64,000 nt of DNA from Oscillospiraceae bacterium (GTDB lineage: Bacteria > Bacillota > Clostridia > Oscillospirales > Oscillospiraceae): assembly GCA_015067435.1 (NCBI GenBank), contig SVMM01000007.1, positions 1 to 64,000 on the forward strand, written 5' to 3'. Below the pieces are notes generated by a model that was not told the DNA's origin, searched no databases, and saw only the letters and a program-made list of their open reading frames with translations. Shown piece after piece: positions 162 through 16,989 of this stretch (the stretch's first letter is position 1; the number at the start of each line of letters is the position of its first letter). Position numbers and translations under genes: made by a program.

Positions 162-1163
162 ATGTCGAACAGGAAAGGAAAGAACACCATGCGGATCATC
201 GCCATACTGCTTTCCGCGCTGACGCTTTTCGGGCTGGGCGGCTGCAAGACGCCGGAGCCGGCTCCCGTCCCCGAACCCGAACCGATTGACGGCGGGGTGA
301 CAGACAACACCGACTACAGCGCGCCGAAGACGATCGGGTCGAAGGACATTTCGGACTACCGCGTGAACTTCATGCTCGGCGGCGAGTGGGCGCCGGGACA
401 TGAGAACGTGTTCTATACGTTCGAGGTCAAGCCCGACGGCTCCGGCACGCTCACGGTGGCCGAGTCCGTCACGGGCGTCAGCGCCCCGGCGGACAAGGCG
501 CTGCTCGACGCCCTGCAGGCGGTCGTCGACGAGTACGCTCTCGCCGGACAGAACGGCGTCTACCGCCTCACGGCGGGCATCGACCCGTCGGAGTTCGGCC
601 CGTCCACGCTGACGGTGCACTACGCCTCGGGGGAGACGCTGACCTTCACGGTCGACAACAACCCCGACGAGCCGTGGGCGCGGGCGACCTATCTCGCCTT
701 TGCCAAGTGGTTCGCCTCACGGGGGATCGACACGCTGCTGCCGAGCGGGCTGGAGAAGATGGTGACGTTTGTAAGCCTCAAGCTCAAGGACGGCGACAAC
801 TCTTATTCCTACGGCTTTGAAGCGGAGCCGAACGACAAGGGACAGGTTGTTTTCACCCGCGTCCGGAACGGCGAGAAGGAGAGCGTTCCCATGTGGGACA
901 CGCGGGATTTCTACGACAACCTCAGCACGGCGATCGAGGACTTCGACCTGAGCAAATACGACCCCGCCTCGCCGCTCTACGGATATGAACAGACGGAGCA
1001 GGACAAAAACGATCCCTCCGCCGCGGCGGTGCAGCTCACCATCCGGTACGAGGACGGACATGAGGTGTCCGTTTCTTCGAGCGCCGAGAGCGTGCTTGAC
1101 GATCTGGGCTTTCTGATCGACATGCTGTTCGATTACTTTGACGAGCAGTTTCCGAAGAATTGA
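162..1163 (+). CDS. Hypothetical lipoprotein
   Basis: Protein of 333 residues. The start at 162 is chosen because GGAGG lies 9 bases upstream; the in-frame ATG at 189 has only a weak site. A basic N-region, a hydrophobic stretch (IIAILLSALTLFGLG) and the lipobox-like LGGC near residue 28 predict a lipoprotein signal peptide with lipidation on that Cys. A Pro/Glu-rich linker (PEPAPVPEPEPI) follows, as in many surface lipoproteins. The rest looks like two similar beta-rich halves (FYTFEVKPDGSGTLTV and SYGFEAEPNDKGQVVF) and is not a family I recognise. It precedes the signalling genes by 43 bases and may be co-transcribed with them; a role as the extracellular ligand partner of the sensor is possible but is inference. 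Confidence 0.75.
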   Translation: MSNRKGKNTMRIIAILLSALTLFGLGGCKTPEPAPVPEPEPIDGGVTDNTDYSAPKTIGSKDISDYRVNFMLGGEWAPGHENVFYTFEVKPDGSGTLTVAESVTGVSAPADKALLDALQAVVDEYALAGQNGVYRLTAGIDPSEFGPSTLTVHYASGETLTFTVDNNPDEPWARATYLAFAKWFASRGIDTLLPSGLEKMVTFVSLKLKDGDNSYSYGFEAEPNDKGQVVFTRVRNGEKESVPMWDTRDFYDNLSTAIEDFDLSKYDPASPLYGYEQTEQDKNDPSAAAVQLTIRYEDGHEVSVSSSAESVLDDLGFLIDMLFDYFDEQFPKN

Positions 1164-1206: not shown

Positions 1207-2877
1207 ATGCTCCACATCAGCGAACGGACAAAACGGCATATTCTCTGGTTCGCGCTGGCGATGCTCGCCGGCGCGCTCGCCCATACGCTGACGCCGGGAG
1301 CATTCCCGTTCAAGAGCCTGAGCACGGTGATCTACTGCGGCATCCTGATCGCTTGGATGCTGACGGTGCAAAAGCGCGTGATCCAGTGGCATGTCCGCCG
1401 GTATCTGGTCTCCGTCGCCGGAGGCTGCACGCTGCTGATGATCCTGCGCGTGTGCCGCTGGGATTTCTTCACATGGTCGCCGGACCTCAGCCGCTGGCTG
1501 TGGTATGCCTACTATATCCCGTTCGTCATCTCGCCCCTGTGCCTGCTGTGCGCGGCGAAATGCGTCGGCAGGCGCTGGGCGGATAAGCCGCTGCGCCGCG
1601 TCGCGTGGCTGTGGATTCCCTGCGCGATGATGGCGGCGGGCTTTCTGACCAACGACCTGCACGGCGCGGCGTTCCGCATCACGCCGCTGGCCAACGATGA
1701 CTATACCTATACGCACGGCTGGCTCTATTGGCTGATGGCGGCGTGGTGCGCCGTTTTGCTGCTGTGGGCGTTTTCCGCGCTGCTGCGCAGCAGCCTGATT
1801 GCCAGCGGCAGGCGCTTCTGGTTTATACCCGTCGTCTGGGCGGCGGCGTTCACCGCGCTGCTGTTCGTCTTTATCGCGAACGGCGGCTCGCCCCACTGGG
1901 GGAGGTACAGCCTCTACAATTTTCAGGAGATCTGGGCGGCGCTGCTGGTCGGGACGGCGGAGTGCTTCATCCTGATCGGCCTCATTCCCGCGAACACCGA
2001 TTACGAGGAGATCTTCGGGAAGCTGCCGTGGAACGCGGCGCTGACCGACCGCGACGGCAACGTCGCCTTCCACTCCGCCGACGCGTTCCTGCCCACGCCG
2101 GAGCAGATCGACATGGCGCGCGGCGGCGCCGTCGCCGTCGACGCGAACCATATCCTGCGCTGCCAGGAGATCCGCGGCGGCGTGTCGAGCTGGCTGGTGG
2201 ACCGGACGCACGTCAACCGGATGAACAGGCACATCGCGGAGACGGTGGAGTATCTGGAGGAGGAAAACGACCTGCTTGCCGAGGAGAACCGCGTCCGCGC
2301 GGCGCGCGCCTCCTACGAGACGCAGAACACCATCTACGACGGTGTCATCCCCGTCGTCCGTCCGCAGCTTTTCGAGGCGGAGCGCCTGCTGCGCGAGGAG
2401 ACGGCGGACGACGAGGCCTACCGGCAGAACATGCTGCGCGCGATGGTGCTGTGCGACTATGCCAAGCGGCGCATCAACCTCTCACTCATCGCGCACGGGA
2501 ACGCCAGCCTCTCCACCAGCGAGCTGGCGCTGGCGATCCGCGAAACGCTGGAATACCTCTCCGCGGGCGAGATCGAAACGGCGCTGGAGTGCTCCGAGGC
2601 GGAGCTGTATCCGACCGAGCAGCTTGTGATGGCATACGACTTCTTCGAGGAGGTGCTGGAGACGGCGCTGCCAGGACTCAGCGCGCTGTTCGTCCACATC
2701 GCCACGAAGGACGCCTTGCAGCTCAAGCTCGTCATGGAAACGCCGTCCGCGCTGCCGCCCGAGGGCTGGTTCGCGCGCCAGCGCGAAAAGCTCGGCGCGA
2801 GGATCGAGCTGTCCGTTGACGAGGAGAGCTGCGGCTTCGTGCGGCTGTCCTTCGGGAAGGGGGGCGCGGCGGAATGA
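1207..2877 (+). CDS. Eight-TM sensor-like membrane protein without a recognisable kinase core
   Basis: Protein of 556 residues. About eight hydrophobic helices fill residues 11-262, resembling the N-terminal 7TM domain of clostridial histidine kinases. A PAS-like patch follows (WNAALTDRDGNVAFHSAD), then a strongly charged coiled coil (YLEEENDLLAEENRVRAARASY) and a helical domain. I find no H-box, N-box or ATP-lid glycines, although the C-terminus (LQLKLVMETPS...GFVRLSFGKGG) could be a degenerate ATPase fold. The next gene, a real histidine kinase, starts inside its stop codon (ATGA), so the two are translationally coupled. It is best read as a sensor or co-sensor subunit paired with that kinase. 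The Shine-Dalgarno is weak (AGGGGAC, distant), so the start is moderately certain. Confidence 0.75.
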   Translation: MLHISERTKRHILWFALAMLAGALAHTLTPGAFPFKSLSTVIYCGILIAWMLTVQKRVIQWHVRRYLVSVAGGCTLLMILRVCRWDFFTWSPDLSRWLWYAYYIPFVISPLCLLCAAKCVGRRWADKPLRRVAWLWIPCAMMAAGFLTNDLHGAAFRITPLANDDYTYTHGWLYWLMAAWCAVLLLWAFSALLRSSLIASGRRFWFIPVVWAAAFTALLFVFIANGGSPHWGRYSLYNFQEIWAALLVGTAECFILIGLIPANTDYEEIFGKLPWNAALTDRDGNVAFHSADAFLPTPEQIDMARGGAVAVDANHILRCQEIRGGVSSWLVDRTHVNRMNRHIAETVEYLEEENDLLAEENRVRAARASYETQNTIYDGVIPVVRPQLFEAERLLREETADDEAYRQNMLRAMVLCDYAKRRINLSLIAHGNASLSTSELALAIRETLEYLSAGEIETALECSEAELYPTEQLVMAYDFFEEVLETALPGLSALFVHIATKDALQLKLVMETPSALPPEGWFARQREKLGARIELSVDEESCGFVRLSFGKGGAAE

Positions 2878-4139
2878 CGTTTTTTGCGCTTCCCGCGCTC
2901 GCCCGCGGCATGCTGCGCCTGCTGAACCTGCTGACGCTGCTGCTGTACCAGTACAGCCTGCTGCGCATCGCGCGCGACCGGCGGAAATGGGAGCTGACGG
3001 CGAGCGCCGTGCTGGGGAACCTGTTGAGCTATGCGATGATGCAGGCCCTCTCGGACGGCTCGCCCTACGCGCCGAACGCCGTGTGGAGCATTGCGCTGCT
3101 GCTCACGCTGCTCGCGGCGGCGGTCGGACTCGCGCTCCGCGGCAGATGGTACAGCATGCAGCGCATCGAGGCGGCGTCCATCAAGGAGTGCGTGGACAGC
3201 CTGCCCGTTGGCGCGTGCTGCTATTGGCCCGGCGGGCTGGTGAAGCTGGTCAACGGGCGCATGGAGGAGCTGAGCTACGCCGTCACAGGCGGCGCGCCGC
3301 TGGACGGCGAGCGATTGTGGCGCGCGCTGGAGAACGGCGAGGGGAACTGCGAATTCCTGCAAACGGGAGAAAATCCCGTCGTGCGCCTCCCGGACGGGCG
3401 CGTGTGGAGCGTCCGCCGCGAGACCGCGGAGCTGGACGGCGGCGAGATCTACGCGCTGCTGGCAGACGAGATGACGGAGGAGTACGCCGCCAACGCGGAG
3501 CTGACGGAAAAGCGCGAGCAGGTCAGCGAATTCAACAGCCGCCTGCGCGCGCTGAACCGGGAGATCGAGCGCATGACCGTCGAAAAAGAGGTGCTTGCCG
3601 CGAAGGTGAGCGTCCACGACGACCTCGGCCACGCGCTGCTGTACGCCAAGCAGTACTACCGGGATCCCGCGTCGGGGGACCGCGAAACGCTGCTGCGCAT
3701 CTGGGGCGAGGCGATCCGCTTCGTGCGCAGCGAGAAGCCGGAGCGCTGGCGCGACCAGTACGCCTACGCGCATCAGGCGGCGAGCGAGCTGGGCATCACC
3801 ATCTACACCGACGGCGCGCTGCCGAACGGCGGCAGGGTGGAGGAGATGCTCTCGGACGCGCTGATCTGCTGCCTGAGCAACGCGGCGCGGCACGGCGGCG
3901 CGGACGCGCTGTATGTGACCGCTCGGGAGACGGAGAAGACCTGGCGGCTGCACATTTCAAACAACGGCGCCGCGCCGGAGGGCGAGGTTGCCGAGACCGG
4001 CGGACTGAAGAACATGCGCGAGGAGATCGAGCGCGCGGGCGGGACGATGCGCGTGGAAAGCGCGCCCGCCTTCGCCGTGATCCTTGAGCTGCCAAAGGAG
4101 GAGGACGAAAATGCCGTATCGCGTGTTGATCGTGGATGA
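2874..4139 (+). CDS. Sensor histidine kinase
   Basis: Protein of 421 residues. Hydrophobic segments near residues 11-30, 41-58 and 71-89 suggest a short membrane domain. A PAS-like region (about 100-200, ...PVGACCYWPGGLVKLVNGRM...) is followed by a coiled coil (about 208-243). The likely phosphoacceptor is H248 in KVSVHDDLGHALL. The HATPase has an N-box (CCLSNAARHGG, N336), a G1-like ISNNG with Asn in place of the usual Asp, and GGLKNM. It overlaps the 8-TM gene by 4 bp and is followed by the response regulator, whose Shine-Dalgarno lies inside its 3' end. The signal is unknown. The N-for-D change in the G1 box is unusual and could weaken ATP binding. Confidence 0.85.
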   Translation: MTFFALPALARGMLRLLNLLTLLLYQYSLLRIARDRRKWELTASAVLGNLLSYAMMQALSDGSPYAPNAVWSIALLLTLLAAAVGLALRGRWYSMQRIEAASIKECVDSLPVGACCYWPGGLVKLVNGRMEELSYAVTGGAPLDGERLWRALENGEGNCEFLQTGENPVVRLPDGRVWSVRRETAELDGGEIYALLADEMTEEYAANAELTEKREQVSEFNSRLRALNREIERMTVEKEVLAAKVSVHDDLGHALLYAKQYYRDPASGDRETLLRIWGEAIRFVRSEKPERWRDQYAYAHQAASELGITIYTDGALPNGGRVEEMLSDALICCLSNAARHGGADALYVTARETEKTWRLHISNNGAAPEGEVAETGGLKNMREEIERAGGTMRVESAPAFAVILELPKEEDENAVSRVDRG

Positions 4140-4734
4140 CCAGCGCATGGCGCGCCAGCTGTTCGAGAGCGTGGTCGCCTCGTCGGAGCAATACCGGCTC
4201 GCGGGGTCGCTGGACGCCGCGGAGGACGCCGCGCCGTTCTGCGCGTCGCAGGGGGTCGATCTTGTTCTGATGGATCTGATCTTTGTCGACAGGCCCGACG
4301 GTTTTGAGGCGGCGCGCGCGATCAAGGACGTCAGTCCGCGGACGAAGATCGTCATTGTCACCAGTATGCCGGAGGTCAGCTACCTCGACCGCGCGCGGGA
4401 GATCGGCGTGGAGAGCTTCTGGTACAAGGAGGTCGGAGAGGAGCCGCTGCTCGCGCTGATGGACCGCACGATGGCGGGCGAATCCGTCTATCCGGACACC
4501 ACGCCGCGCCTTGTCCTCGGCAACGCCACGAGCGCGGAGCTGACCGATCGCGAGCTGGACGTGCTGCGCGAGCTGCTGACCGGCGCCACCAACGGCGAGA
4601 TCGGCGAAAAGCTCGGCATGAGCGAGCGGACGGTCAAGACGCACATCACGCACATGCTGGAAAAGACCGGCTTCAAGAACCGCACAGTGCTGGCGATCCG
4701 CGCCCGCATGAGCGGACTTGTCATCGACGAATGA
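4111..4734 (+). CDS. NarL/LuxR-type response regulator
   Basis: Protein of 207 residues. The start at 4111 is chosen because AAAGGAGGAGG lies just upstream and MPYRVLIVDDQ is the standard receiver start; an earlier ATG at 4084 lacks a site. The receiver domain (about 1-125) has acidic D9/D10, phosphoacceptor D55 in LVLMDLIF and Lys in WYKEV. The C-terminal LuxR helix-turn-helix (about 142-200) has LTDRELDVLRELLTGATNGEIGEKLGMSERTVKTHI in pieces. It overlaps the kinase gene by 29 bp. Its probable targets are the two promoters that share the motif at 4741-4761 and 13865-13885, the first lying directly downstream of this gene; this link is inference. Confidence 0.9.
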   Translation: MPYRVLIVDDQRMARQLFESVVASSEQYRLAGSLDAAEDAAPFCASQGVDLVLMDLIFVDRPDGFEAARAIKDVSPRTKIVIVTSMPEVSYLDRAREIGVESFWYKEVGEEPLLALMDRTMAGESVYPDTTPRLVLGNATSAELTDRELDVLRELLTGATNGEIGEKLGMSERTVKTHITHMLEKTGFKNRTVLAIRARMSGLVIDE

Positions 4735-4740
4735 CGCAAT

Positions 4741-4785
4741 TTTGCCCGATGGTACGATGCGGAGACGTCTGGATCGTGCTATGAT
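4741..4785 (+). promoter_or_regulatory. Activator-type promoter with shared 21-bp motif (SLH operon)
   Basis: The sequence TTTGCCCGATGGTACGATGC plus one more G (4741-4761) occurs again, exactly, upstream of the leucine-rich protein gene. Here it is followed 18 bp later by the -10 box TATGAT (4780-4785). No good -35 hexamer exists at the usual spacing, which suits a promoter that needs an activator bound at the -35 region. The motif contains CGATG repeated with a 3-base gap. The upstream NarL-type regulator is the natural candidate. Confidence 0.65.
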
Positions 4786-4848
4786 AAAAAAGTTGAAACG
4801 GGAGCATGGCGCTTCACGGAATATGAAAAGGACAGGAGGAACCAGCCC

Positions 4849-5553
4849 ATGAAAAAACTGACGTCACTCTGCCTCGCGTTCCTGCTCGCATTCTCCCTCT
4901 GCGCGACCGCCCTCGCGGCGGATGTGCCCTCCGACTGGGCGAGGGCGGAGGTGTCCGGCGCGATCAGCGCCGAGCTTGTGCCGGCGGATCTGCAAGGCAA
5001 ATATCAGCAGGCCATCACGCGCGGCGAGTTCTGCCGCCTCGTCATCCAGCTGATGCGGCAGACCTATGCGGCGGACTGCGTGGAGTTCTTCGAAGAAAAC
5101 GGCGGTTTCACCGTTTCCTTTACGGACACGAGCGACCGCGAGATCCTCGCGGCGGCGCAGTTCGGCATCGTCAACGGTGTGGGCGGCGGACGCTTCGACC
5201 CGGACAGCAGCATCCAGCGGCAGGCGGCGGCGACCATGCTCAAACGCGCGGCAAACATCCTCGATCTGACGCCGACGGTGGCGCTGACCTTTTACGACGC
5301 CGACCAGTTTGCACCCTGGGCGGCGGAGGGTATTTTGTTTACCTCTGCGCTGATCGACCCCTTCAGCCGCTTTCCCGTAATGGGCGGCACCGGCAACTTC
5401 CGCACAATTAACGATGAGACGGTAGCGGTGTTTTCACCCTTTGATCTTTACACCCGCGAGCAGGCGATCTGCACGATGATGCGCATTTACGACAACTGGC
5501 TGATGAAGACGCTGGATCCCGACGGATATCACGAGATGTTCGGTTACGGCTGA
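4849..5553 (+). CDS. Secreted SLH-domain protein
   Basis: Protein of 234 residues with a clear signal peptide (MKKLTSLCLAFLLAFSLC...ALAA, cleavage near residue 24). The mature protein is little more than SLH repeats: about 26-66 (DWARAEVSGAISAELVP...ITRGEFCRLV), 88-130 (FTDTSDREILAAAQFGIV...SIQRQAAATMLKRA) and 140-215 (FYDADQFAPWAAEG...YTREQAICTMMRIYDN). SLH repeats normally bind pyruvylated secondary wall polymers, so it should sit on the cell wall. AGGAGG lies 9-10 bases before the ATG. It is the first gene after the shared-motif promoter, and the first 5'-nucleotidase gene follows after 10 bases, so it leads an operon. Confidence 0.85.
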   Translation: MKKLTSLCLAFLLAFSLCATALAADVPSDWARAEVSGAISAELVPADLQGKYQQAITRGEFCRLVIQLMRQTYAADCVEFFEENGGFTVSFTDTSDREILAAAQFGIVNGVGGGRFDPDSSIQRQAAATMLKRAANILDLTPTVALTFYDADQFAPWAAEGILFTSALIDPFSRFPVMGGTGNFRTINDETVAVFSPFDLYTREQAICTMMRIYDNWLMKTLDPDGYHEMFGYG

Positions 5554-5563
5554 TGGGTGAGGT

Positions 5564-7033
5564 ATGAAACATCTCAAAAAACTGGTGCTGCTGCACTCGA
5601 ACGACATGCACGGCGACTTCCTCGCCGAGCAGATCGATGAAAAGCTGGTCGGCGGCGTGTCGCTGCTCTCCGGCTATGTGGGCAAGGTGCGGCAGGAGGA
5701 GCCGAACACGCTCTACTGCGTCGCGGGCGACATGTTCCGCGGCAACATCATCGACTCGGAATTTCAGGGCATCTCGACCATCGAGATCATGAATATGCTC
5801 TCGCCCGACGTGGTGACGATCGGCAACCACGAGACGGACTACGGCCTCGCGCATCTGCTGTTTCTGGAGCGCTGCGCGAAGTTTCCCATCATCAACGCGA
5901 ACCTGTTCATCCGCATCAACCGCACCCACCTGTTTGAGCCGTACAAGGTTATCGAGACGGGCGGCATGAAGGTGCTTTTCATCGGCATCATCACCGAGGA
6001 GGTGCTGGCGCAGACGAAGAAGGACGGCCTGATCGGGACGTTCGTCGATGTCGAGGACGCCGCCGAGGAGGTCAGGCGCATCTGCGACGCGCACAAGGCG
6101 ATCGACGTGGATCTCACGGTGCTGCTGACGCACATCGGCATCGAGCAGGACAGAAAGCTGGCGGCGGCGCTCGATCCCGCCTGCGGCGTGGACGTCATCA
6201 TCGGCGGACACAGCCACACCTACATGACCGAGCCGGAGAGGGTAAACGATATCCTGATCGTGCAGGCGGGCGTGGGCACCGACCAGCTCGGCCGCTTCGA
6301 CATCATGGTGGACACGGACGAAAACCGCGTGGACAGCTGGACGTGGCAGCCCGTCCCGATCGACGGGACGACCTGCCCCCGCGACGCCGACATCGAGGCG
6401 CTCATCACCCGCTACAAATCCCGCACGGACGAGAAATACAGCCGCGTCATCACGCGCTTCAAACGCCGGCTGACGCACCCGGCGCGCACGCAGGAGACGG
6501 AGCTCGGCTGCGTGTTTGCCGACGCCATGCGCGAGAGCCTGGGCACGGACATTTTCCTGCTGGCGTCCGGCAGCATCCGCACGCAGGAGATGGGCTCGAT
6601 CGTCATGCTGGGCGACCTCAATGAGGGCTTCCCCTACGACGACGCGGCGTATGTGGTCAAGATCAGCGGCGCGCAGCTGCGCAAAATGCTCGTCTACATG
6701 ATGCGCGACGAGGTCTGGACGGGTATCCACTGCGAGTTCTATCAGTTCTCCGAGGGGCTGCACGTCGTCTATTCCAAGGCGGAGCACGCCCTGCGGGAGT
6801 TCACCTACTACGGCGAGGAGATCGCCGACGACCGCCTCTTTACGGTGGGCTTGCAGGCGTTCCATTTCAACAATCTGGGCGAGAGCTTCCGGATCGACGT
6901 GAACGAGATCTACGCCAACGCGCGGCCGCGCATGGTGGCGACCTCGTGCCGCACGGTGCTGGAGGGCTATCTCTCCGATCACCCGCGGCTCGACCACAGG
7001 GTCGGCGGACGCCTGACGGTTTTGGAGGATTAG
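5564..7033 (+). CDS. 5'-nucleotidase family metallophosphatase (copy 1)
   Basis: Protein of 489 residues with the two-domain layout of the 5'-nucleotidase/2',3'-cyclic phosphodiesterase family. The N-terminal metallophosphatase domain shows the metal-binding blocks HSNDMHGD (residues 11-18), GDMFRG, GNHETD, LLTHIG and GGHSHT. The C-terminal domain includes the conserved YDDAAYVVKISGAQLRKML. Most family members are exported, but this one begins MKHLKKLVLLHSND with no signal peptide, so it looks cytoplasmic. The Shine-Dalgarno GTGAGG is 10 bases after the SLH gene. The next gene is a close tandem paralogue; a 65-nt block (6155-6219) is identical between them. The exact substrate (nucleotide, UDP-sugar, cyclic nucleotide) cannot be told from sequence. 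Confidence 0.9.
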   Translation: MKHLKKLVLLHSNDMHGDFLAEQIDEKLVGGVSLLSGYVGKVRQEEPNTLYCVAGDMFRGNIIDSEFQGISTIEIMNMLSPDVVTIGNHETDYGLAHLLFLERCAKFPIINANLFIRINRTHLFEPYKVIETGGMKVLFIGIITEEVLAQTKKDGLIGTFVDVEDAAEEVRRICDAHKAIDVDLTVLLTHIGIEQDRKLAAALDPACGVDVIIGGHSHTYMTEPERVNDILIVQAGVGTDQLGRFDIMVDTDENRVDSWTWQPVPIDGTTCPRDADIEALITRYKSRTDEKYSRVITRFKRRLTHPARTQETELGCVFADAMRESLGTDIFLLASGSIRTQEMGSIVMLGDLNEGFPYDDAAYVVKISGAQLRKMLVYMMRDEVWTGIHCEFYQFSEGLHVVYSKAEHALREFTYYGEEIADDRLFTVGLQAFHFNNLGESFRIDVNEIYANARPRMVATSCRTVLEGYLSDHPRLDHRVGGRLTVLED

Positions 7034-7069
7034 GACTATCATCAAAATACAATAACGGGAGAGGATCAC

Positions 7070-8533
7070 ATGAAAAATCTCAAGAAGCTGGTACTGCTGC
7101 ACTCGAACGACATGCACGGCGACTTTCTGGCGGAGCAGGTGGACGACAAGCTGGTCGGCGGCGTCTCGCTGCTCTCCGGTTACGTCAGCAAGGTCCGTCA
7201 GGAGGAGCCGAACACGCTCTACTGCATCGCGGGCGACATGTTCCGCGGCTCCATCATCGATCAGGAGTTTCAGGGCTTTTCCACAATCGAGCTGATGAAC
7301 ATGATCTCGCCGGATATCGTGACGCTGGGCAACCACGAGACGGACTACGGCGTCGCGCACCTGCTGTTCCTCGAAAAGTGCGCGAAGTTCCCCATCGTCA
7401 ACGCGAACCTGTACATCAGCACGAACCACGCGCACCTGTTCCGCCCGTACAAGGTTCTCGAGGTGGACGGGATGAAGATCCTCTTCATCGGCATCCTGAC
7501 CGAGGAGGTCATGGCGCAGACGAAGAACGACGGCATGGTCGGCACGTTTGTCAGCGTCGAGGACGCGGCGAAGGAGGTCGAGCGCATCTGCAACGCGCAC
7601 AACGCGGTCGACATCGACTTCACGGTGCTGCTGACGCACATCGGCTGGAAGGAGGATCAGAAGCTGGCGGCGGCGCTCGATCCCGCCTGCGGCGTGGACG
7701 TCATCATCGGCGGACACAGCCACACATTCATCGACGAGCCGGCGAAGGTCAACGATATCCTCATTGTGCAGGCGGGCACGGGCACCGACCAGATCGGGCG
7801 CTTCGACATCATGGTGGACACGGACAACAACTGCGTGGACAGCTGGACGTGGCAGGCGATCCCCATCAACGCGGAGACCTGCCCCTACGACCACGACCTC
7901 GAAAAGCTCCTGAACGTCTACAAGGGCAAGACGGACGAGAAATACGGCCGCGTCATCACGCGTTTCAAGCGCCGTCTGGAGCACGAGGTGCGCACGAGAG
8001 AAACCGAGCTGGGCAGCGTGTTCGCCGACGCGATGAAGGAGAGCCTGGGCGTGGATATCTTCCTGCTGGGCTCCGGCAGCATCCGCAGCGACTGGATGGG
8101 CCCGATCGTCATGCTGGGCGACCTCGCCGAGGGCTTCCCCTACGACGACGCGGCGTACATGATTAAGGTGACGGGCGCGCAGTTCAAGGCGATGATTAAA
8201 TACATGGTACGCGACGAGGTCTGGGAGGGCGTGCACAACGAGTTCTACCAGCTCTCCGAGGGGCTGCACGTCGTCTACGACCGCGCGAGCCATTCGTTCA
8301 AGGAGTTCACCTTCGAGGGCGCGGAAGTTACGGACGAGCAGCTGTTCACGGTGGGCCTCCAGAACTTCCACTTCAAGAACCTCGGGGAGATTTTCCATAT
8401 CAACACGCAGGAGGTCTACGCCAACATGAAGCCGCGCATCATCTCGACCTCCTGCCGTCAGGTGCTGGAGGAGTACCTCTCCGAGCACCAGCACCTCGAC
8501 CACGTCGTCGGCGACCGTTTGGTCGTGCTGTAA
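7070..8533 (+). CDS. 5'-nucleotidase family metallophosphatase (copy 2)
   Basis: Protein of 487 residues, a tandem paralogue of the preceding gene (about three quarters of residues identical by eye). The same metal-site blocks are present: HSNDMHGD, GDMFRG, GNHETD, LLTHIG, GGHSHT. It too starts directly at the first metal motif (MKNLKKLVLLHSND) and has no signal peptide. GGGAGAGG precedes the start by 6 bases. The 36-base gap to copy 1 holds no terminator, so the genes should be co-transcribed. All visible metal ligands are kept in both copies, so neither looks like a decaying duplicate. Confidence 0.9.
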   Translation: MKNLKKLVLLHSNDMHGDFLAEQVDDKLVGGVSLLSGYVSKVRQEEPNTLYCIAGDMFRGSIIDQEFQGFSTIELMNMISPDIVTLGNHETDYGVAHLLFLEKCAKFPIVNANLYISTNHAHLFRPYKVLEVDGMKILFIGILTEEVMAQTKNDGMVGTFVSVEDAAKEVERICNAHNAVDIDFTVLLTHIGWKEDQKLAAALDPACGVDVIIGGHSHTFIDEPAKVNDILIVQAGTGTDQIGRFDIMVDTDNNCVDSWTWQAIPINAETCPYDHDLEKLLNVYKGKTDEKYGRVITRFKRRLEHEVRTRETELGSVFADAMKESLGVDIFLLGSGSIRSDWMGPIVMLGDLAEGFPYDDAAYMIKVTGAQFKAMIKYMVRDEVWEGVHNEFYQLSEGLHVVYDRASHSFKEFTFEGAEVTDEQLFTVGLQNFHFKNLGEIFHINTQEVYANMKPRIISTSCRQVLEEYLSEHQHLDHVVGDRLVVL

Positions 8534-8590
8534 CATCGCCGGAACACCAATCAGACATAAACCAAAAACAACAAAGAAAGGGAGAGCGAC

Positions 8591-9385
8591 ATGGGACTGT
8601 TTGACAAGAAATTCTGCGACGTCTGCGGAGGGAAGATCGGCCTTTTGGGCAACCGCAAGCTGGAGGACGGCAATCTGTGCAAGGACTGCGCGGCGAAGCT
8701 CTCGCCGTGGTTCAACGAGCGCCGGCACAGCACGCTGGCGGAGATCAAGGAGCAGCTGGACTACCGCGAGCAGAACAAGCAGGCGGTGAGCGCGTTCCGC
8801 ACCACGCGCAGCCTCGGCAAGAACTACAAGGTGCTCCTCGACGAGGACGCGCGCAAGTTCATGGTGACGAACGCGAGCAAGCTCGTCGACGCCAACCCCG
8901 ACGTGCTCGACTTCTCGCAGGTCACGGGCTGCGATCTGGACATCGAGGAGGATCGCGACGAGCTCATGCGCAAGGGCCCGGACGGCAAGGACATCAGCTA
9001 CAATCCGCCGCGCTATGAGTATTCCTATGACTTCTACATCACCATCCGCGTCAACCATCCGTATTTCGACGAGATGCGCTTCCGCCTCAACCCGACCTCC
9101 GTCAATACCGGCGACCGCTCGATGGCGGGCATCGGCGGCAACGTGAGGGTGGCGCCCGGCAGCATGGGCATCCGTGCCGGCATGGGCGCGAACGACTATC
9201 AGGAATACGTCCAGATGGGCACCGAGATCAAGGAGGCGCTGACGCAGGCGCGTCAGGAGATCCGCACCGAGGTCGCGGCGGCCGCCGCGCCGAAGACCGC
9301 CGTCAAGTGCCCGCTGTGCGGCGCGACGACCTTCCCCGACGCGAACGGGCGCTGCGAGTACTGCGGCGGCTCGATCAACGGTTAA
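8591..9385 (+). CDS. DUF4428-type zinc-ribbon protein
   Basis: Protein of 264 residues. The N-terminal MGLFDKKFCDVCGGKIGLLGNRKLEDGNLCKDC is the DUF4428 signature, a CxxC...CxxC zinc ribbon. A middle domain (about 70-215) has a beta-rich pattern (YEYSYDFYITIRVNHPYFDEMRFRL) and a short Gly-rich loop; a second zinc ribbon closes the protein (CPLCGATTF...CEYCGG). There is no signal peptide or membrane segment. A good site (AAAGGGAGAG) precedes the ATG. It lies in the run of genes between 4849 and 11840 with no terminator before or after. Function is unknown; two other C-terminal zinc-ribbon proteins lie close by (1-80 and 11902-12558). Confidence 0.8.
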   Translation: MGLFDKKFCDVCGGKIGLLGNRKLEDGNLCKDCAAKLSPWFNERRHSTLAEIKEQLDYREQNKQAVSAFRTTRSLGKNYKVLLDEDARKFMVTNASKLVDANPDVLDFSQVTGCDLDIEEDRDELMRKGPDGKDISYNPPRYEYSYDFYITIRVNHPYFDEMRFRLNPTSVNTGDRSMAGIGGNVRVAPGSMGIRAGMGANDYQEYVQMGTEIKEALTQARQEIRTEVAAAAAPKTAVKCPLCGATTFPDANGRCEYCGGSING

Positions 9386-9413
9386 GCGGCGGCGCAGGAT
9401 GGGAGCGAAAACG

Positions 9414-11840
9414 ATGCGAAGAAAAGTTTGGAGCCTGCTGCTGGCACTGTGCCTGACGGTATCGCTGGCAACGACAGCATGGGCGGCAAAGGAATTCGGG
9501 CCCATCAACCGCCTCCGCTTTGAGGGCACCACCGTCAAATGGGACGCGGTGGAGGGCGCCAACAAGTATTACGCGGGGCTCATGAGGCTGGAGGGGAACA
9601 TGGCCGTCATGGTGAAGTCGCTGGAAACCACGGCGACCTCCGTCTCCTTCGAAAATGAGCTCAAGCCGTACCGGCAGGACCTCGACACGAAATTCATGGT
9701 CGGCGTCTACGCGCTGAAAACCGCGCAGTACAACGAATCCCCGGTCTACTACACCGAGGCGGTGGCGGGGCTGTATCTGGCGCAGGGCTACAAGACCCCG
9801 ATGGCGCTCTCCGGTGAGGCGAGCATCGGCGTGCCCTATCCCGGATACTATCTGCGGCCCACCTTCTCCGGCACGCTCTATCAGGCGTGGCGTGAGAACG
9901 AAAGCGCGGTGCATTACCGCTGGCAGATCTCCGATTCCGCCGCCGGCAGCTTCGCGGACATCTCCGGCGAGCGCGAGCGCACCCATGTCGTCGAAGGCGG
10001 CGAGATCGGGAAATACCTCCGCGTCGTCGTGACGGCGGAGGGCTATTCCGGCCAGATCGTCAGCAACGTCGTGCGCGTGGAGAAGGGCTTTCCCCTGCCC
10101 GCCGAGCGGCCCCAGCTGTCGGTGGGAAGCAATTCCCGGACGGGGAAGCCGATCATCGTTGTAACGAATGCGAAGGCGCATCAGGAGTATACGTGCACCA
10201 CCGTGGAAACGCGCGCGCCGACCGAGGCGTTTTGGCGCGACGCCGTCTCTCCCAGTTCCGACGGTATGCTTTCCCTGAACTGCACCCCCGGCGCCGTCAA
10301 CTACGTCTACACCCGCAGCAAGGAGACCGCGACGCACGCGGCGGGGACCGAGCTGCTGCGCGAGAGCGCCTACATCGCCGAGACGACAGCCGCCGCGGCA
10401 GCGGAGGTCAGCTCCCTCAGGCTGGAGATCACCGGCCGCGAGCGCTTTGGCTCAAGCAACGCAAAGTACATGGTGGACGACATTCTTGAGGTGACGGTCA
10501 GCGCGCTGCCGGAGGGCACCGCGTTCAAGGGTATCCGCGCGGACGGCTGGCTGTGGAACTTCAACACCGTCAACGAGTTCGGCAACGCGGCGTTCTACGG
10601 CGATCCCGGCTGCAAGGTGCCGCTGGAGGCAGGACAGTATTACACGAAGGCGTACATCCGCCTCGCGAGCGCCGGAGCCGCCAAAAAGCTCGGCGTGCAG
10701 TACCGGCTCGACAACGGCGAGCTGCTCACGGCGAACCAGAGCCTCGACGTCGCCGACGAGTACGGGCAGTATGAGATCAGCATGGTGCTTCTTCCCACCG
10801 ACCTTACGGTCACCGCCGGCGACAAGGTGGAGGGCTTTCAGGTGCAATGGATGCCGGAGGAGGCCGTGATGCGGAACCTCGACTTCGACGCCGGCCAGAG
10901 CGGCGCGCCGCTGATCACCTTCGACGAGGACACCCAGACGCTGACGGTGGACGCCACGGCGGCGAAGGCGGGGAAATATCACTACACCGCCTACGTCGGC
11001 AGAGCCGAGATGGACGACATGATCGTCACCGTCGAGGCGAGAACGGCGGGCGCCGCCGAGGTGAGCATCTCCGCGCCCCAGATCCTGCCGCTTACCCCCG
11101 GACAGCGGGCGGATGCGGGCGTCACCGTTGATCCCGAGAGTGCGTTCGCTTCGCTGGTCTGGATGGTGGAAAAGCCCAACCTCATCAGCGTGAAGGACGG
11201 CTTCGTCACCGCCTCGCCGGACGCGCCCTACGGCGCGACGTCGACAATCACCGTCTACACCGGAACCGCGGGCGTCACCGCCACTATTCTGGTGGTGATC
11301 GTCAATGAGGAGGGCGACGTCGGCGTCGGTGACGGCGGCGAGACCGCGTTTACCGACGTACCGAGCGGCGCATATTACGCCGACGCGGTGGCGTGGGCGG
11401 TGGAAACGGGCGTGACCAAGGGCACGAGCGAGACGACCTTCTCGCCCAACGACACGCTCACGCGCGCGCAGGCGGTGACGTTCCTCTGGCGCGCGAAGGG
11501 CAGCCCCGCGCCGACGAGCAGCTACAACCCCTTCGCCGACGTCAAAGCGGGCGCGTACTACTACGACGCCGTGCTGTGGGCGGTCGAGAACGGCATCACG
11601 AACGGCGTGAGCGCCGACGAGTTCAGCGTCGACGGCAAGGTGACGCGCGGACAGATGATTACGTTCCTCTGGCGCACCGAGGGCAGGCCCTTCGACACCG
11701 GCGGTAAGTGGTACGAGGCGGCGGAGAGCTGGGCGGTGTCCAGACGGCTGCTTTCCGGAACGGCGGAGGACTACACGACCGACGGCAAGTGCCCGCGCTC
11801 CGACGTGGTCTACTACCTCTATCGCGATCTCGCGCAATAA
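9414..11840 (+). CDS. Large secreted surface protein with Ig-like domains and C-terminal SLH repeats
   Basis: Protein of 808 residues from ATG 9414, chosen because GGGAG lies 8 bases upstream; the ATG at 9399 has no usable site. The signal peptide is MRRKVWSLLLALCLTVSL...AWAA. A fibronectin-like domain (about 25-115), a bacterial Ig-like domain (about 125-220, YRWQISDSAAGSFADISG) and further beta-sandwich modules follow; around 550-625 a BIG-like domain (ITVYTGTAGVTATILVVIV) is visible. Three SLH repeats end the protein: FTDVPSGAYYADAVAWAVETG, FADVKAGAYYYDAVLWAVENG and KWYEAAESWAVSRRLLSG, each with a TRAQ/TRGQ/PRSD turn. The protein should be anchored to the wall polymer by these repeats. It is the last gene before a strong terminator. 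The binding target of the Ig modules is unknown. Confidence 0.85.
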   Translation: MRRKVWSLLLALCLTVSLATTAWAAKEFGPINRLRFEGTTVKWDAVEGANKYYAGLMRLEGNMAVMVKSLETTATSVSFENELKPYRQDLDTKFMVGVYALKTAQYNESPVYYTEAVAGLYLAQGYKTPMALSGEASIGVPYPGYYLRPTFSGTLYQAWRENESAVHYRWQISDSAAGSFADISGERERTHVVEGGEIGKYLRVVVTAEGYSGQIVSNVVRVEKGFPLPAERPQLSVGSNSRTGKPIIVVTNAKAHQEYTCTTVETRAPTEAFWRDAVSPSSDGMLSLNCTPGAVNYVYTRSKETATHAAGTELLRESAYIAETTAAAAAEVSSLRLEITGRERFGSSNAKYMVDDILEVTVSALPEGTAFKGIRADGWLWNFNTVNEFGNAAFYGDPGCKVPLEAGQYYTKAYIRLASAGAAKKLGVQYRLDNGELLTANQSLDVADEYGQYEISMVLLPTDLTVTAGDKVEGFQVQWMPEEAVMRNLDFDAGQSGAPLITFDEDTQTLTVDATAAKAGKYHYTAYVGRAEMDDMIVTVEARTAGAAEVSISAPQILPLTPGQRADAGVTVDPESAFASLVWMVEKPNLISVKDGFVTASPDAPYGATSTITVYTGTAGVTATILVVIVNEEGDVGVGDGGETAFTDVPSGAYYADAVAWAVETGVTKGTSETTFSPNDTLTRAQAVTFLWRAKGSPAPTSSYNPFADVKAGAYYYDAVLWAVENGITNGVSADEFSVDGKVTRGQMITFLWRTEGRPFDTGGKWYEAAESWAVSRRLLSGTAEDYTTDGKCPRSDVVYYLYRDLAQ

Positions 11841-11853
11841 GCTGAAAACAACA

Positions 11854-11885
11854 CGAAACCGGAGGGCGGACGCCCTCCGGTTTCG
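11854..11885. terminator. Bidirectional terminator
   Basis: A perfect 15-bp inverted repeat, CGAAACCGGAGGGCG (11854-11868) and its complement (11871-11885), sits between the convergent ends of the Ig/SLH gene and the zinc-ribbon gene at 11902. The A- and T-rich ends of the arms give a short T tract in each direction. Confidence 0.85.
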
Positions 11886-11901
11886 TACTGTGCGTTTGAT
11901 G

Positions 11902-12558
11902 TTATTCCGGCTTTTTCGTGCCGCAGTTGGTGCAGAAGTTCCCGTTGTTTGCCATGCCGCACTTCGGGCAGAGCCACGCGCCGGCGGCGACCGCCGCGTC
12001 CTGCGCTTCCTGGAGCGCCTTTGCCATCTCCGCGGGGTCGGACAGCTTTGCCTGAAGCCGGATCGCGCCGATCGCGTCCATGTCCTCCTTGCGCGGCGCG
12101 GCGGAGGTCAGGCGGAAGCGCGTCGCCTGAATGCCCAGCCGCTCGCGCCAGAGCGGGAACAGGTCCTCCGCGAGCGACCTGCCGATCTCATCGGAGCGTC
12201 CCGGCAGCTCGGCGAAGGGGACGCCCGCCGAGGACAGCTTGGTCAGCGCGGCCTCCAGCGCGAGGCAGATCTCGTTTTCCAGATGCTCGTTCAGCTCCGC
12301 GCCCGGCAGGCAGTTTTTGCCGAACAGCGCGGTGTCGCAGACGTTCCAGTCACATTCGCCCTCGCAGGTCAGGGACACGTCGAGCGAAAGGCCGCAGGAC
12401 GCGTCCTGCTCGTGATACAGGATCGGCGTCGGCGTGCGGAAGCGGAGCGTCTCCGCGTGCCCCGCGCTTACCGCGGCGCCCTGCCGCGCCGCGCCCTGTA
12501 TCTGCGTGCCGCCGCGCAGGTGCCCATAGTTGGAAGGATCGGTTTTCGTGATACCCAT
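11902..12558 (-). CDS. SPFH-like protein with C-terminal zinc ribbon
   Basis: Protein of 218 residues. The end (LCPKCGMANNGNFCTNCGTKKPE) is a double-CxxC ribbon matching the partial gene at 1-80. The middle (about 95-170: LENEICLALEAALTKL...IQATRFRLTSAAPRKEDMDAIGAIR) resembles the second half of SPFH/'virion core' family proteins, where the phrase 'ITxFxIxSIxPxEEDMxxI' is typical. The usual family length is 300 or more residues, so this looks like a short form whose N-terminal segment (...RFRTPTPILYHEQD) may be all that remains of the first half. AGGGAGG lies 10 bases before the ATG. It is 31 bases downstream of the leucine-rich gene and may be read with it. Function is unknown. Confidence 0.6.
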   Translation of the reverse strand: MGITKTDPSNYGHLRGGTQIQGAARQGAAVSAGHAETLRFRTPTPILYHEQDASCGLSLDVSLTCEGECDWNVCDTALFGKNCLPGAELNEHLENEICLALEAALTKLSSAGVPFAELPGRSDEIGRSLAEDLFPLWRERLGIQATRFRLTSAAPRKEDMDAIGAIRLQAKLSDPAEMAKALQEAQDAAVAAGAWLCPKCGMANNGNFCTNCGTKKPE

Positions 12559-12589
12559 GGTGCGTTACCTCCCTGTCGAAATAGTCGGA

Positions 12590-13792
12590 TCACTTGCTTT
12601 CAATGATTACGGTGCGGCTCGCGCCGTCCCAGTCCACCGCATAGCCGAAGTACTCGGCAAGGCAGCGCACGGGAGCGTAGGCGCGGTCGCTTACGATGAC
12701 CGCCGCGGTGTCCATCGGGATCTCCTCGCCGCCGGACGTGCGCGCGGCGGCGCTGCCGATGGGAAAGAAGAGCGTTTTTTCACCGTCGGAGAAGGACGCC
12801 TCGCGCTTGTCACCGTCCCACGCGACGCTCAGGCCGAGCGCGTCGCCCGCGGCGCGCAGGGGCACCATCGTGCGGCCGTTTTCGTCCGTGAAGGGCGCGG
12901 CGTCCGTCCATTGCACCGCCTTGCCGTTCACGGTGACGGAAACGGCGTCGGGGTCCGGCGCGGGCGTCGGAGCGGGAGCCGGCGCGGCAAAGGCGGGCAC
13001 ATCGCGGAAGGCGCCCGTGTCGAGGAAAGCGGCGCCGGAGAGCTTGACGTCGCGCAGCGCGTAGCAGTTCTGGAACGCCCAGATGCCGACGCTGGTCACG
13101 CTGTCCGCAAGCACGGCGCTCTCCATGCGCTCAAAGCTCTGGAACGCGCGGTTGCCGACGCGGGTGACGCCGTTCTGCACCACCAGACGCTTGACCAGCG
13201 TGCGGTAGGCGGCCCACGGGCGGTTCGCGATGGTGGGCGCCGCCTCGTCGGACTTGTTGTAGTCCGGGATCGCGCCGCTGCCGGCAACGGTCAGCGTGCC
13301 GACGGCGGAGAGCGCCCAGCTGAGGTTCCCCAGCATACCGTCCGCGCTCACGAGGCGCGCGTCGACGGGGGCGCTGCGGAATGCGCCCAGCTCGATGGCG
13401 ATGTTCTCCGGCATCTGCACGCTTCCGAGCGCGTAGCAGTTCTGGAACGCCCAGATGCCGATGCTTTCGACGCTGTCCGCGAGTTCGACGCTTTCCAGCT
13501 TCTCAAAGCCCTGGAACGCGCGGCTGCCGACGCGGGTGACACCGCTTTGCACGACCAGCCGTCTGGCTTCGGTGCGGAAACCTGCCCACGGGCGGTTTGA
13601 GACGGTGGGCGCCGCCCCGTCGGACTTGTTGTAGTCCGGGATCGCGCCGATGCCGCCGATGGTCAGCGTGCCGTCGTCGGAGAGCGACCAGCTGAGGCTT
13701 CCCAGCGTGCCGCGCGCCGCCGCGCGCGCCGCGGGCGCAAGATTCAACAGCAGACAGAGCGCGAGAAACGCGCCGATCACGCTTTTTTTCAT
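12590..13792 (-). CDS. Secreted BspA-like leucine-rich protein with C-terminal stalk domain
   Basis: Protein of 400 residues from ATG 13792, which has GGGGTGG 10 bases upstream and gives a proper signal peptide (MKKSVIGAFLALCLLLNLAP...ARA). Two near-identical blocks of about 135 residues follow; each contains GTLTI/VxGxGAIPDYNKSD, NRPWA, RLVVQxGVTRVGxRAFQ and IGIWAFQNCYAL, the BspA/LRR_5 type of leucine-rich repeat. A Pro/Ala linker (APAPAPTPAPDPD) leads to a copper-amine-oxidase N-terminal ('stalk') domain (about 285-398: VNGKAVQWTDAAPF...MVPLRAAGDALGL...YAPVRCLAEYFGY). The stalk is closely similar to that of the GH26-like protein at 52107-54116. It has its own promoter carrying the shared 21-bp motif. 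A cell-surface binding role is likely; the ligand is unknown. Confidence 0.85.
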   Translation of the reverse strand: MKKSVIGAFLALCLLLNLAPAARAAARGTLGSLSWSLSDDGTLTIGGIGAIPDYNKSDGAAPTVSNRPWAGFRTEARRLVVQSGVTRVGSRAFQGFEKLESVELADSVESIGIWAFQNCYALGSVQMPENIAIELGAFRSAPVDARLVSADGMLGNLSWALSAVGTLTVAGSGAIPDYNKSDEAAPTIANRPWAAYRTLVKRLVVQNGVTRVGNRAFQSFERMESAVLADSVTSVGIWAFQNCYALRDVKLSGAAFLDTGAFRDVPAFAAPAPAPTPAPDPDAVSVTVNGKAVQWTDAAPFTDENGRTMVPLRAAGDALGLSVAWDGDKREASFSDGEKTLFFPIGSAAARTSGGEEIPMDTAAVIVSDRAYAPVRCLAEYFGYAVDWDGASRTVIIESK

Positions 13793-13840
13793 GTTCGGAC
13801 CCACCCCTTTCCAGAACGACCGGTTTCATGCCACAATGCC

Positions 13841-13885
13841 ATTATAGACGCCGCCGCGCGGAAGCGCATCGTACCATCGGGCAAA
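13841..13885 (-). promoter_or_regulatory. Promoter with shared 21-bp motif (leucine-rich protein gene)
   Basis: On the minus strand the motif TTTGCCCGATGGTACGATGC plus one G (13865-13885) is followed 18 bp later by a perfect TATAAT (13841-13846). Sequence and distance to the -10 box equal those at 4741-4785; no proper -35 box is seen. An extra CATCGTACG lies about 10 bp further upstream. This is a strong sign of control by the same activator. Confidence 0.7.
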
Positions 13886-13916
13886 TTTCCGTGGCGTACG
13901 ATGTTTTTTTGCGGCC

Positions 13917-16799: not shown

Positions 16800-16869
16800 C
16801 TGATCGCTCCCTGATGGTTCGGAAAAACAGCAACAATTGCCGCGAAACGAAAGGTTCACAACAACTGCT

Positions 16870-16898
16870 ATTGTATGGTCGCGCGATTCGTTTGTCAA
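16870..16898 (-). promoter_or_regulatory. Sigma-A promoter of the hybrid kinase gene
   Basis: On the minus strand TTGACA (16893-16898), a 17-bp spacer and TACAAT (16870-16875) form a near-consensus promoter about 70 bases upstream of the kinase start. Confidence 0.75.
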
Positions 16899-16960
16899 GC
16901 GTCCGCGCCGCCGCGCACCGAGCCCGACGTGACATGCGCACTTTTCGGCAATCTTGCCAA

Positions 16961-16989
16961 TTGTGCCGTCCCGACATCTGTGGTACACT
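16961..16989 (+). promoter_or_regulatory. Promoter of the DEAD-box helicase gene
   Basis: TTGTGC (16961-16966), a 17-bp spacer and TACACT (16984-16989) lie about 70 bases upstream of the proposed helicase start. The predicted transcript start near 16996 leaves no in-frame ATG, GTG or TTG before the helicase domain, which supports an unusual start codon. Confidence 0.6.

Follow-up and report, generated by a model that had tools for sequence, protein, structure and literature searches.

A 21-bp candidate activator site of a NarL-type response regulator and its predicted surface-protein regulon in an Oscillospiraceae bacterium

The window analyzed here is a stretch of 64,000 nucleotides from an Oscillospiraceae bacterium (assembly GCA_015067435.1, contig SVMM01000007.1, positions 1 to 64,000), and the element in question is a 21-bp sequence, TTTGCCCGATGGTACGATGCG, which occurs in it twice, once on each strand (Table 1). 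A cassette of three genes near the start of the window encodes a 7TM-like membrane protein, a histidine-kinase-like protein and a response regulator of the NarL/VraR type. The stop codon of the regulator gene is followed by six bases and then by the first copy of the 21-mer, which precedes a row of genes for SLH and 5'-nucleotidase proteins, while the second copy precedes a gene for a BspA-type leucine-rich protein; Pfam matches bear out the identity of the genes in both cases. These two copies are the only matches in the window at up to three mismatches, and 100 dinucleotide shuffles gave a mean of 0.01 chance matches, with none reaching two. Each copy is separated by 18 bp from a -10 box, and neither promoter has a normal -35 hexamer, the best candidate at spacers of 16-18 bp having two of the six bases of TTGACA. 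A first-pass annotation of this DNA had reported both copies, their spacing, the missing -35 hexamers and the position of the regulator gene, all of which proved correct, and had proposed that the neighbouring regulator acts at the 21-mer as an activator of genes for surface proteins.

The genome to which the window belongs (G000; 3.34 Mb in 36 contigs) contains six places that match the 21-mer with at most three mismatches, compared to none for a reversed control pattern, and the same search of a set of 60 genomes that includes G000 returned 17 places in seven genomes, again with none for the control. A second form of the element (form B, ATCGTACCATCGGACGATGCG in gene direction, as opposed to form A) was noticed among these places at an equal distance from the -10 box; a search for it in the 60 genomes returned 15 places in six genomes, compared to two for its reversed control (in G013 and G038). 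When merged, the searches yield 30 distinct places, two of which were found by both, and 24 of these are promoter sites: eight in G000 (four of form A and four of form B), six in G001 (four and two), four in G006 (two and two) and six in G013 (two and four). A TANNNT hexamer stands exactly 18 bp after the 21-mer in all 24. This spacing was not part of either motif search, and TANNNT starts at only 0.24-0.26% of window positions. The matches are thus not scattered, as they might have been had the first-pass proposal been mistaken. The other six places (in G002, G011, G049, G004 and G009, and at C30:64957 of the own genome) have no -10 box at the spacing, look like coding DNA and were kept out of the site counts. 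Two or three of the six -35 bases are present in 23 of the 24 promoters (the exception, G001:C30:20600, has five), which implies that the promoters would be weak without help, and a TGN characteristic of an extended -10 precedes the -10 box in 19. Across the 24 sites, conservation lies mainly in the site and the -10 region, and most of the intervening positions are below 0.6 bits.

A looser 18-base pattern, allowed up to three mismatches in the own genome, matches 28 places compared to 10 for its reversed control; the seven with at most two mismatches are all sites already counted, and among the 21 with exactly three the sequences of four (L014, L025, L033 and L034) were inspected. The promoter pattern ACGATGNG-N16-GCTANNNT matches 25 places in the 60 genomes, 15 of which had already been counted (including all six in the own genome) and 10 of which are scattered over eight genomes. 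The possibility that forms A and B have separate regulators was considered and set aside, since both forms are found in all four genomes with identical spacing and a common skeleton; because the two forms co-occur, and because the own genome has a single match to the regulator at E<=1e-20, a single regulator is assumed for both. In the own genome the form B promoters at C22:233913 and C30:210551 (L143 and L145) have common flanks, and the genes behind them have a signal-peptide start in common; they look like a duplicated promoter region placed before different proteins, of 674 and 864 amino acids (aa). In G013 two form B sites, at C209:1759 and C209:2380 (L154), lie 621 bp apart; behind the one at 1759 there is only a frame of 27 codons, which has a signal-like start and may be what is left of a gene.

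Alignment of the 24 sites of both forms gives T at position 2 in 22, G4 in 23, C7 in 24, A9 in 23, T10 in 24 and G12 in 23, while ACGATG at positions 14-19, which includes A17, is present in all 24. Position 9.5 is the centre of symmetry of the skeleton T2-N4-C7-N4-G12-N4-A17, which is identical to the motif of LiaR, T(X)4C(X)4G(X)4A, in an excerpt of PMC7191749. Form B pairs as a palindrome at seven of nine positions. The centre of the site lies 30.5 bp before the -10 box in all 24 sites; if the -10 box is taken to start at -12, with the transcription start assumed accordingly, the centre would fall at about -42.5, overlapping the poor -35 region as is the case for class II activators (-41.5 to -42.5). 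As a separate observation, GTACGATG at 13896-13903, which starts 11 bp past the upstream end of the second copy, is a possible extra half-site; the same excerpt describes weak secondary sites used by LiaR and VraR too.

The regulator has a receiver domain and a GerE helix-turn-helix domain, both matched in Pfam above the curated cut-off. Its frame is open from TTG 4084, and the ATG at 4111 is preceded by GGAGGA. VraR proteins are the top three of its seven solved relatives; among the 25 highest-scoring of 53 NCBIfam matches there is no LiaR/VraR model and no model over its cut-off, and the other 28 have lower scores. Orthologues with at least 84% identity are present in G001, G006 and G013 and in none of the other genomes of the 60, so that the genomes which bear the site and those which bear the regulator are the same four; this comparison covered the NarL-type regulator of the window and its matches. 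The nearest site follows the regulator stop codon by 6 bp in G000, 11 bp in G001, 43 bp in G006 and 670 bp in G013, where a small lipoprotein-like frame intervenes. On an rpoB tree of 13 of the 18 genomes of the genus (G003 and G014 have fragments only, and G007, G016 and G017 have no match), the four site-bearing genomes fall within an unresolved group of nine, and the best tree needs two changes.

More distant homologues of the regulator also have a related box beside their own genes. In G360 and G070, which belong to other families of the order and whose homologues have 51-52% identity, the core TGCACGAAAGTACGATG lies 102 and 49 bp, respectively, after the regulator stop codon, with the same spacing as in the window to TATGAT (G360) or TAAAAT (G070), and a version of it with three mismatches, before TACACT, lies 265 bp after the stop codon of a 60%-identical homologue (L049). 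The core together with its -10 box is found with zero mismatches in three of 394 genomes of the order (G000, G360 and G070), all of which are among the 19 that have a regulator homologue at E<=1e-55; it is absent from the 375 others, and this absence and a second site in G070 are what the order-wide search newly contributes. The result uses exact matches only: at up to two mismatches the core occurs in 71 of the 394 genomes, mostly as single hits, and a reversed control hits some genomes too. A class-wide motif search of 391 genomes found the exact core with its -10 box in the own genome only. All six genomes with the exact core encode an Arg before TVK in the recognition helix. Five other aligned homologues have His, Ala or Asn at this residue, and two more, L172 and L173, have the Arg yet lack the core.

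The layout was evaluated as C-N4-G-N4-A-N22-TANNNT, from 20 bp before to 300 bp after the regulator stop codon, at 32 diverged loci with 39-60% identity, five of them from the window's own genus (three of 35 loci, L050, L067 and L165, were left out because their sequence ends behind the regulator). It is present in 11 of the 32, compared to 1.7 expected from shuffles (Poisson 1.5e-6 if the loci are independent), while the other 21 gaps from 12 to 33 occur in 0-5 loci; outside the genus, eight loci have it compared to 1.5 expected (Poisson 1.7e-4), and among the 27 loci unseen until the test, six have it compared to 1.35 expected (Poisson 0.003). GATG-N20-TANNNT occurs in seven of the 32 loci, compared to 0-3 for the remaining eight gaps in the range 18-26. 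The box of L168 is a perfect 18-bp palindrome, ATCACCCATATGGGTGAT. A further palindrome, CACTATCACATGTGATAGTG, perfect over 20 bp, was observed in G001:C63 (L070), 59 bp after a 39%-identical regulator and 19 bp before TACAAT; G001 has the main regulator as well, and this palindrome may be the box of a second, diverged one.

The genes behind the sites encode for the most part proteins that appear to be exported, as the first-pass annotation had supposed from the window: judged by eye, the products of 20 of the 24 first genes have an N-terminus that resembles a signal peptide or that of a lipoprotein, the other genes being SPFH-type genes (G000 and G006), a DUF6935 gene (G000) and the 27-codon remnant (G013). 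Pfam domains in the target rows are SLH, 5'-nucleotidase, DUF4428, BspA-type repeats, Cu_amine_oxidN1, CHAP, DUF3298 and DUF6935; five of the proteins scanned in target rows and homologue loci had no match. Sites precede an SLH protein (72-78% identity) and a 550-aa protein (76-87% identity, partial in G013) in all four genomes, the BspA family in two (G000 and G001; 63%) and the DUF6935 family in two (78%), so that the motif is kept, as had been anticipated, before orthologous SLH and leucine-rich genes. These families stand in gene rows whose membership has changed, and their persistence behind the sites would be hard to explain other than by regulation. The SPFH label of the G000 and G006 genes is given because a homologue in locus L054 matches Band_7_1; the 139-aa G006 protein is 62% identical to it over the first 97-100 residues, with only a weak zinc-ribbon match and no Band_7 match of its own in Pfam, and only 20 codons of the own gene are present on its contig. 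The tandem 5'-nucleotidase genes of the window are both kept in G013 (85% and 91% identity), and the Lachnospiraceae locus L056 likewise has a 5'-nucleotidase gene downstream of its regulator.

The HATPase_c match of the kinase-like protein is weak (22.9 bits compared to a cut-off of 26.4), and its NCBIfam matches, UhpB, MctS and LiaS (LiaS at 6.7e-4), are all far under cut-off. An alignment of eight homologues has an invariant His, Asn and GG, and the product is a probable histidine kinase. The order 7TM-like protein (about 555 aa), kinase (about 425 aa), regulator recurs in G070, G360, G054, L054 and L056, and across the homologous cassettes identity to the window's proteins is 21-61% for the 7TM-like protein and 22-65% for the kinase. 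Two exact sites are present in G070, one of which begins 97 bp ahead of the cassette's first gene while the other lies beyond the regulator gene. The co-directional row behind a form B site in G006 consists of genes for an SPFH-type protein, a 329-aa lipoprotein-like protein, the 7TM-like protein, the kinase and the regulator. The window starts at base 1 of its contig (C10), shortly before a 333-aa relative of the 329-aa protein, and the last stretch of another contig of the own genome, C16 (145236-145416, L142), carries a form B site followed by 20 initial codons of an SPFH-type gene; on the basis of the gene order in G006, the two contig ends probably adjoin, as one row cut by the assembly. 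The sites in G070 and G006 and these contig ends suggest that the cassette is probably autoregulated. Elsewhere in the window, a large hybrid histidine kinase (7TM N-terminus, kinase, receiver and Hpt) is encoded at 13959-16988(-), just upstream of the BspA gene and on the same strand; it has no DNA-binding domain in Pfam.

Table 1. Coordinates of the sites, promoter elements and genes of the locus, as positions of the window
Feature	Position	Strand	Evidence or remark
333-aa protein ahead of cassette	162..1163	+	relatives (52-70% identity) in site-bearing rows of G006 and G001
7TM-like membrane protein, putative partner of kinase	1207..2877	+	HisKA_7TM 7.6e-6, weak, under curated cut-off
Histidine-kinase-like protein	2874..4139	+	invariant His in 'HDDLG'; PF02518 HATPase_c 1.2e-4, under curated cut-off
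NarL/VraR-type response regulator, probable owner of the site	4111..4734	+	GerE (PF00196) 2.3e-17; Response_reg (PF00072) 3.4e-15
Form A site, copy 1	4741..4761	+	exact 21-mer
-10 box TATGAT	4780..4785	+	18 bp past copy 1; TGC before it (extended -10)
SLH-domain protein, first gene of target row	4849..5553	+	Pfam SLH; signal-like N-terminus; orthologues behind sites in G001, G006 and G013
5'-nucleotidase 1, target row	5564..7033	+	Pfam
5'-nucleotidase 2, target row	7070..8533	+	Pfam
DUF4428 protein, target row	8591..9385	+	Pfam
Large SLH protein, target row	9399..11840	+	Pfam
BspA-type leucine-rich protein, Cu_amine_oxidN1	12590..13792	-	Pfam; signal-like N-terminus; site-preceded orthologue in G001 (63% identity)
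-10 box TATAAT	13841..13846	-	18 bp past copy 2; GTC before it, hence no TGN
Form A site, copy 2	13865..13885	-	exact 21-mer

These observations suggest, with a probability that may be put at roughly 0.85, that the 21-mer is an activator site of the neighbouring regulator, and that this regulator is the output of the 7TM-like/kinase/regulator cassette and drives a surface-protein regulon. When phosphorylated, a dimer of the regulator would bind the 18-bp box over the place of the missing -35 hexamer, and the bound dimer would recruit RNA polymerase to a promoter that mostly has an extended -10, which amounts to class II activation. The predicted targets are at least eight promoters of the own genome, mostly those of S-layer-type, leucine-rich, lipoprotein-like and other exported proteins, and probably the cassette operon as well. 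The signal is perhaps envelope stress, a speculation suggested by the LiaR-like box and the SPFH gene. The earlier assignment of the site to this regulator is supported by the co-occurrence in four of 60 genomes, by the layout downstream of diverged homologues and by the LiaR skeleton, and activation of surface-protein genes stands as a prediction from sequence. Form B, the symmetric skeleton, the larger regulon and the probable autoregulation lay beyond what the first-pass annotation could see.

A number of points weigh against this interpretation. The fit to the LiaR skeleton was noticed only after the alignment had been made, and by our own arithmetic a random 21-mer fits the four letters in one of six registers about 2% of the time; form A is weakly symmetric, with four of nine pairs. 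The association of the exact core with the regulator homologue has a hypergeometric value of 9.6e-5, which is not independent, because the G360 and G070 loci were already known when the core was chosen. The layout is absent from 21 of the 32 diverged loci, which are partly related to one another. Among its 11 positives, three (L069, L160 and L163) look like chance and five (L056, L061, L065, L169 and L170) had been noticed before the test. A scan of the 32 loci for palindromes alone, which was not taken as main evidence, found eight at a gap of 20, one base off, and four at the expected gap of 21, with three of the eight being near-identical Lachnospiraceae loci. The two cassette partners have no LiaF match in Pfam or NCBIfam. 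Finally, a single clade of the four site-bearing genomes is acceptable on the rpoB tree (p-AU 0.296).

If the four genomes share ancestry, as they may, then other genes could co-occur with the site too, and the site could belong to another transcription factor found in the same four genomes. This is unlikely in view of the diverged regulator homologues, behind whose genes this box layout is more frequent than expected, of the exact core, which is found in no regulator-negative genome of the 394, and of the box skeleton, which is that of LiaR, a relative of VraR and hence of the nearest solved relative of the regulator. It is unlikely to the same degree that the regulator binds the site but represses, with the box blocking RNA polymerase at the -35 position that it overlaps: all but one of the promoters have so few -35 bases that they should be weak without help, and the fixed spacing, together with the TGN at 19 of the 24 promoters, fits class II activation.

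The invariance of the spacing to the -10 box could also be expected if the element were not an operator but the long recognition sequence of an alternative sigma factor, but the -10 boxes are sigma-70-like, and a conserved block of 18-21 bp that is symmetric in form B is unlike a -35 element, so that this explanation is very improbable. Least probable of all is the view that promoter repeats of no regulatory significance have been spread by mobility or duplication. Such a view would draw on the two exact copies, which lie 9 kb apart, and on the form B promoters with shared flanks at C22:233913 and C30:210551; conservation over the 24 sites is nevertheless confined mainly to the site and the -10 region, and two forms and several target families display the same geometry.

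The activator site and its cassette may in addition represent one branch of an undescribed three-component family in Clostridia, made up of a 7TM-like protein, a kinase and a VraR-like regulator, in which the letters of the box drift while the rigid layout of C-N4-G-N4-A, 22 bp and -10 box persists, often at the first promoter downstream of the regulator, so that specificity would be readable from the regulator's own locus; the balance of the evidence tips slightly towards this generalization. If the layout holds family-wide, then the sites of many unstudied NarL-type regulators would be predictable from the promoter beside their own genes. Such predicted sites would be open to testing with purified protein without culturing the organism, and regulator specificity read in this way would lead to predictions of surface-protein regulons. 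For a group of uncultured Clostridia that metagenome assemblies have made known, the present case yields, by sequence alone, a concrete predicted regulon of surface proteins together with its candidate regulator and the exact box.

In the literature searched, neither the site nor the cassette was seen to be described; the regulon is newly predicted, and its regulator is of the NarL-type kind. The closest known systems are LiaFSR and VraTSR of the Firmicutes envelope stress response, which resemble the present one in their NarL-type regulator, with VraR as its best solved relative, in a motif with the same skeleton as the box, and in a cassette of three genes, the kinase of which here weakly resembles LiaS, far under cut-off. 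LiaR and VraR are reported to bind each other's promoters. The third partner here, in contrast, is 7TM-like and not LiaF-like, and the box lies near -42.5, whereas the excerpt of PMC7191749 has LiaR protecting -76 to -52 at PliaI. Because no LiaF was seen, and because no curated model is over its cut-off among the matches listed, the regulator of the window is not filed as a LiaR/VraR system.

Two further systems share single features with the one proposed here. In Bacillus subtilis the envelope-stress operon pspA-ydjGHI encodes the SPFH protein YdjI (excerpt of PMC8581546), and an SPFH (Band_7_1) gene follows the regulator in L054, with related SPFH-type genes behind sites in G006 and G000. 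The B. subtilis operon is, however, under sigma-W according to that excerpt, Band_7 is not matched by the G006 protein itself, and the comparison made here concerns the SPFH gene. LuxR responds to an acyl-homoserine lactone, where a receiver domain and a kinase are found here, but the GerE domain of the window's regulator is of the LuxR family, and the lux box, a 20-bp inverted repeat centred at -42.5 (excerpt of PMC3376562), occupies the same promoter position as that inferred for the box of the window.

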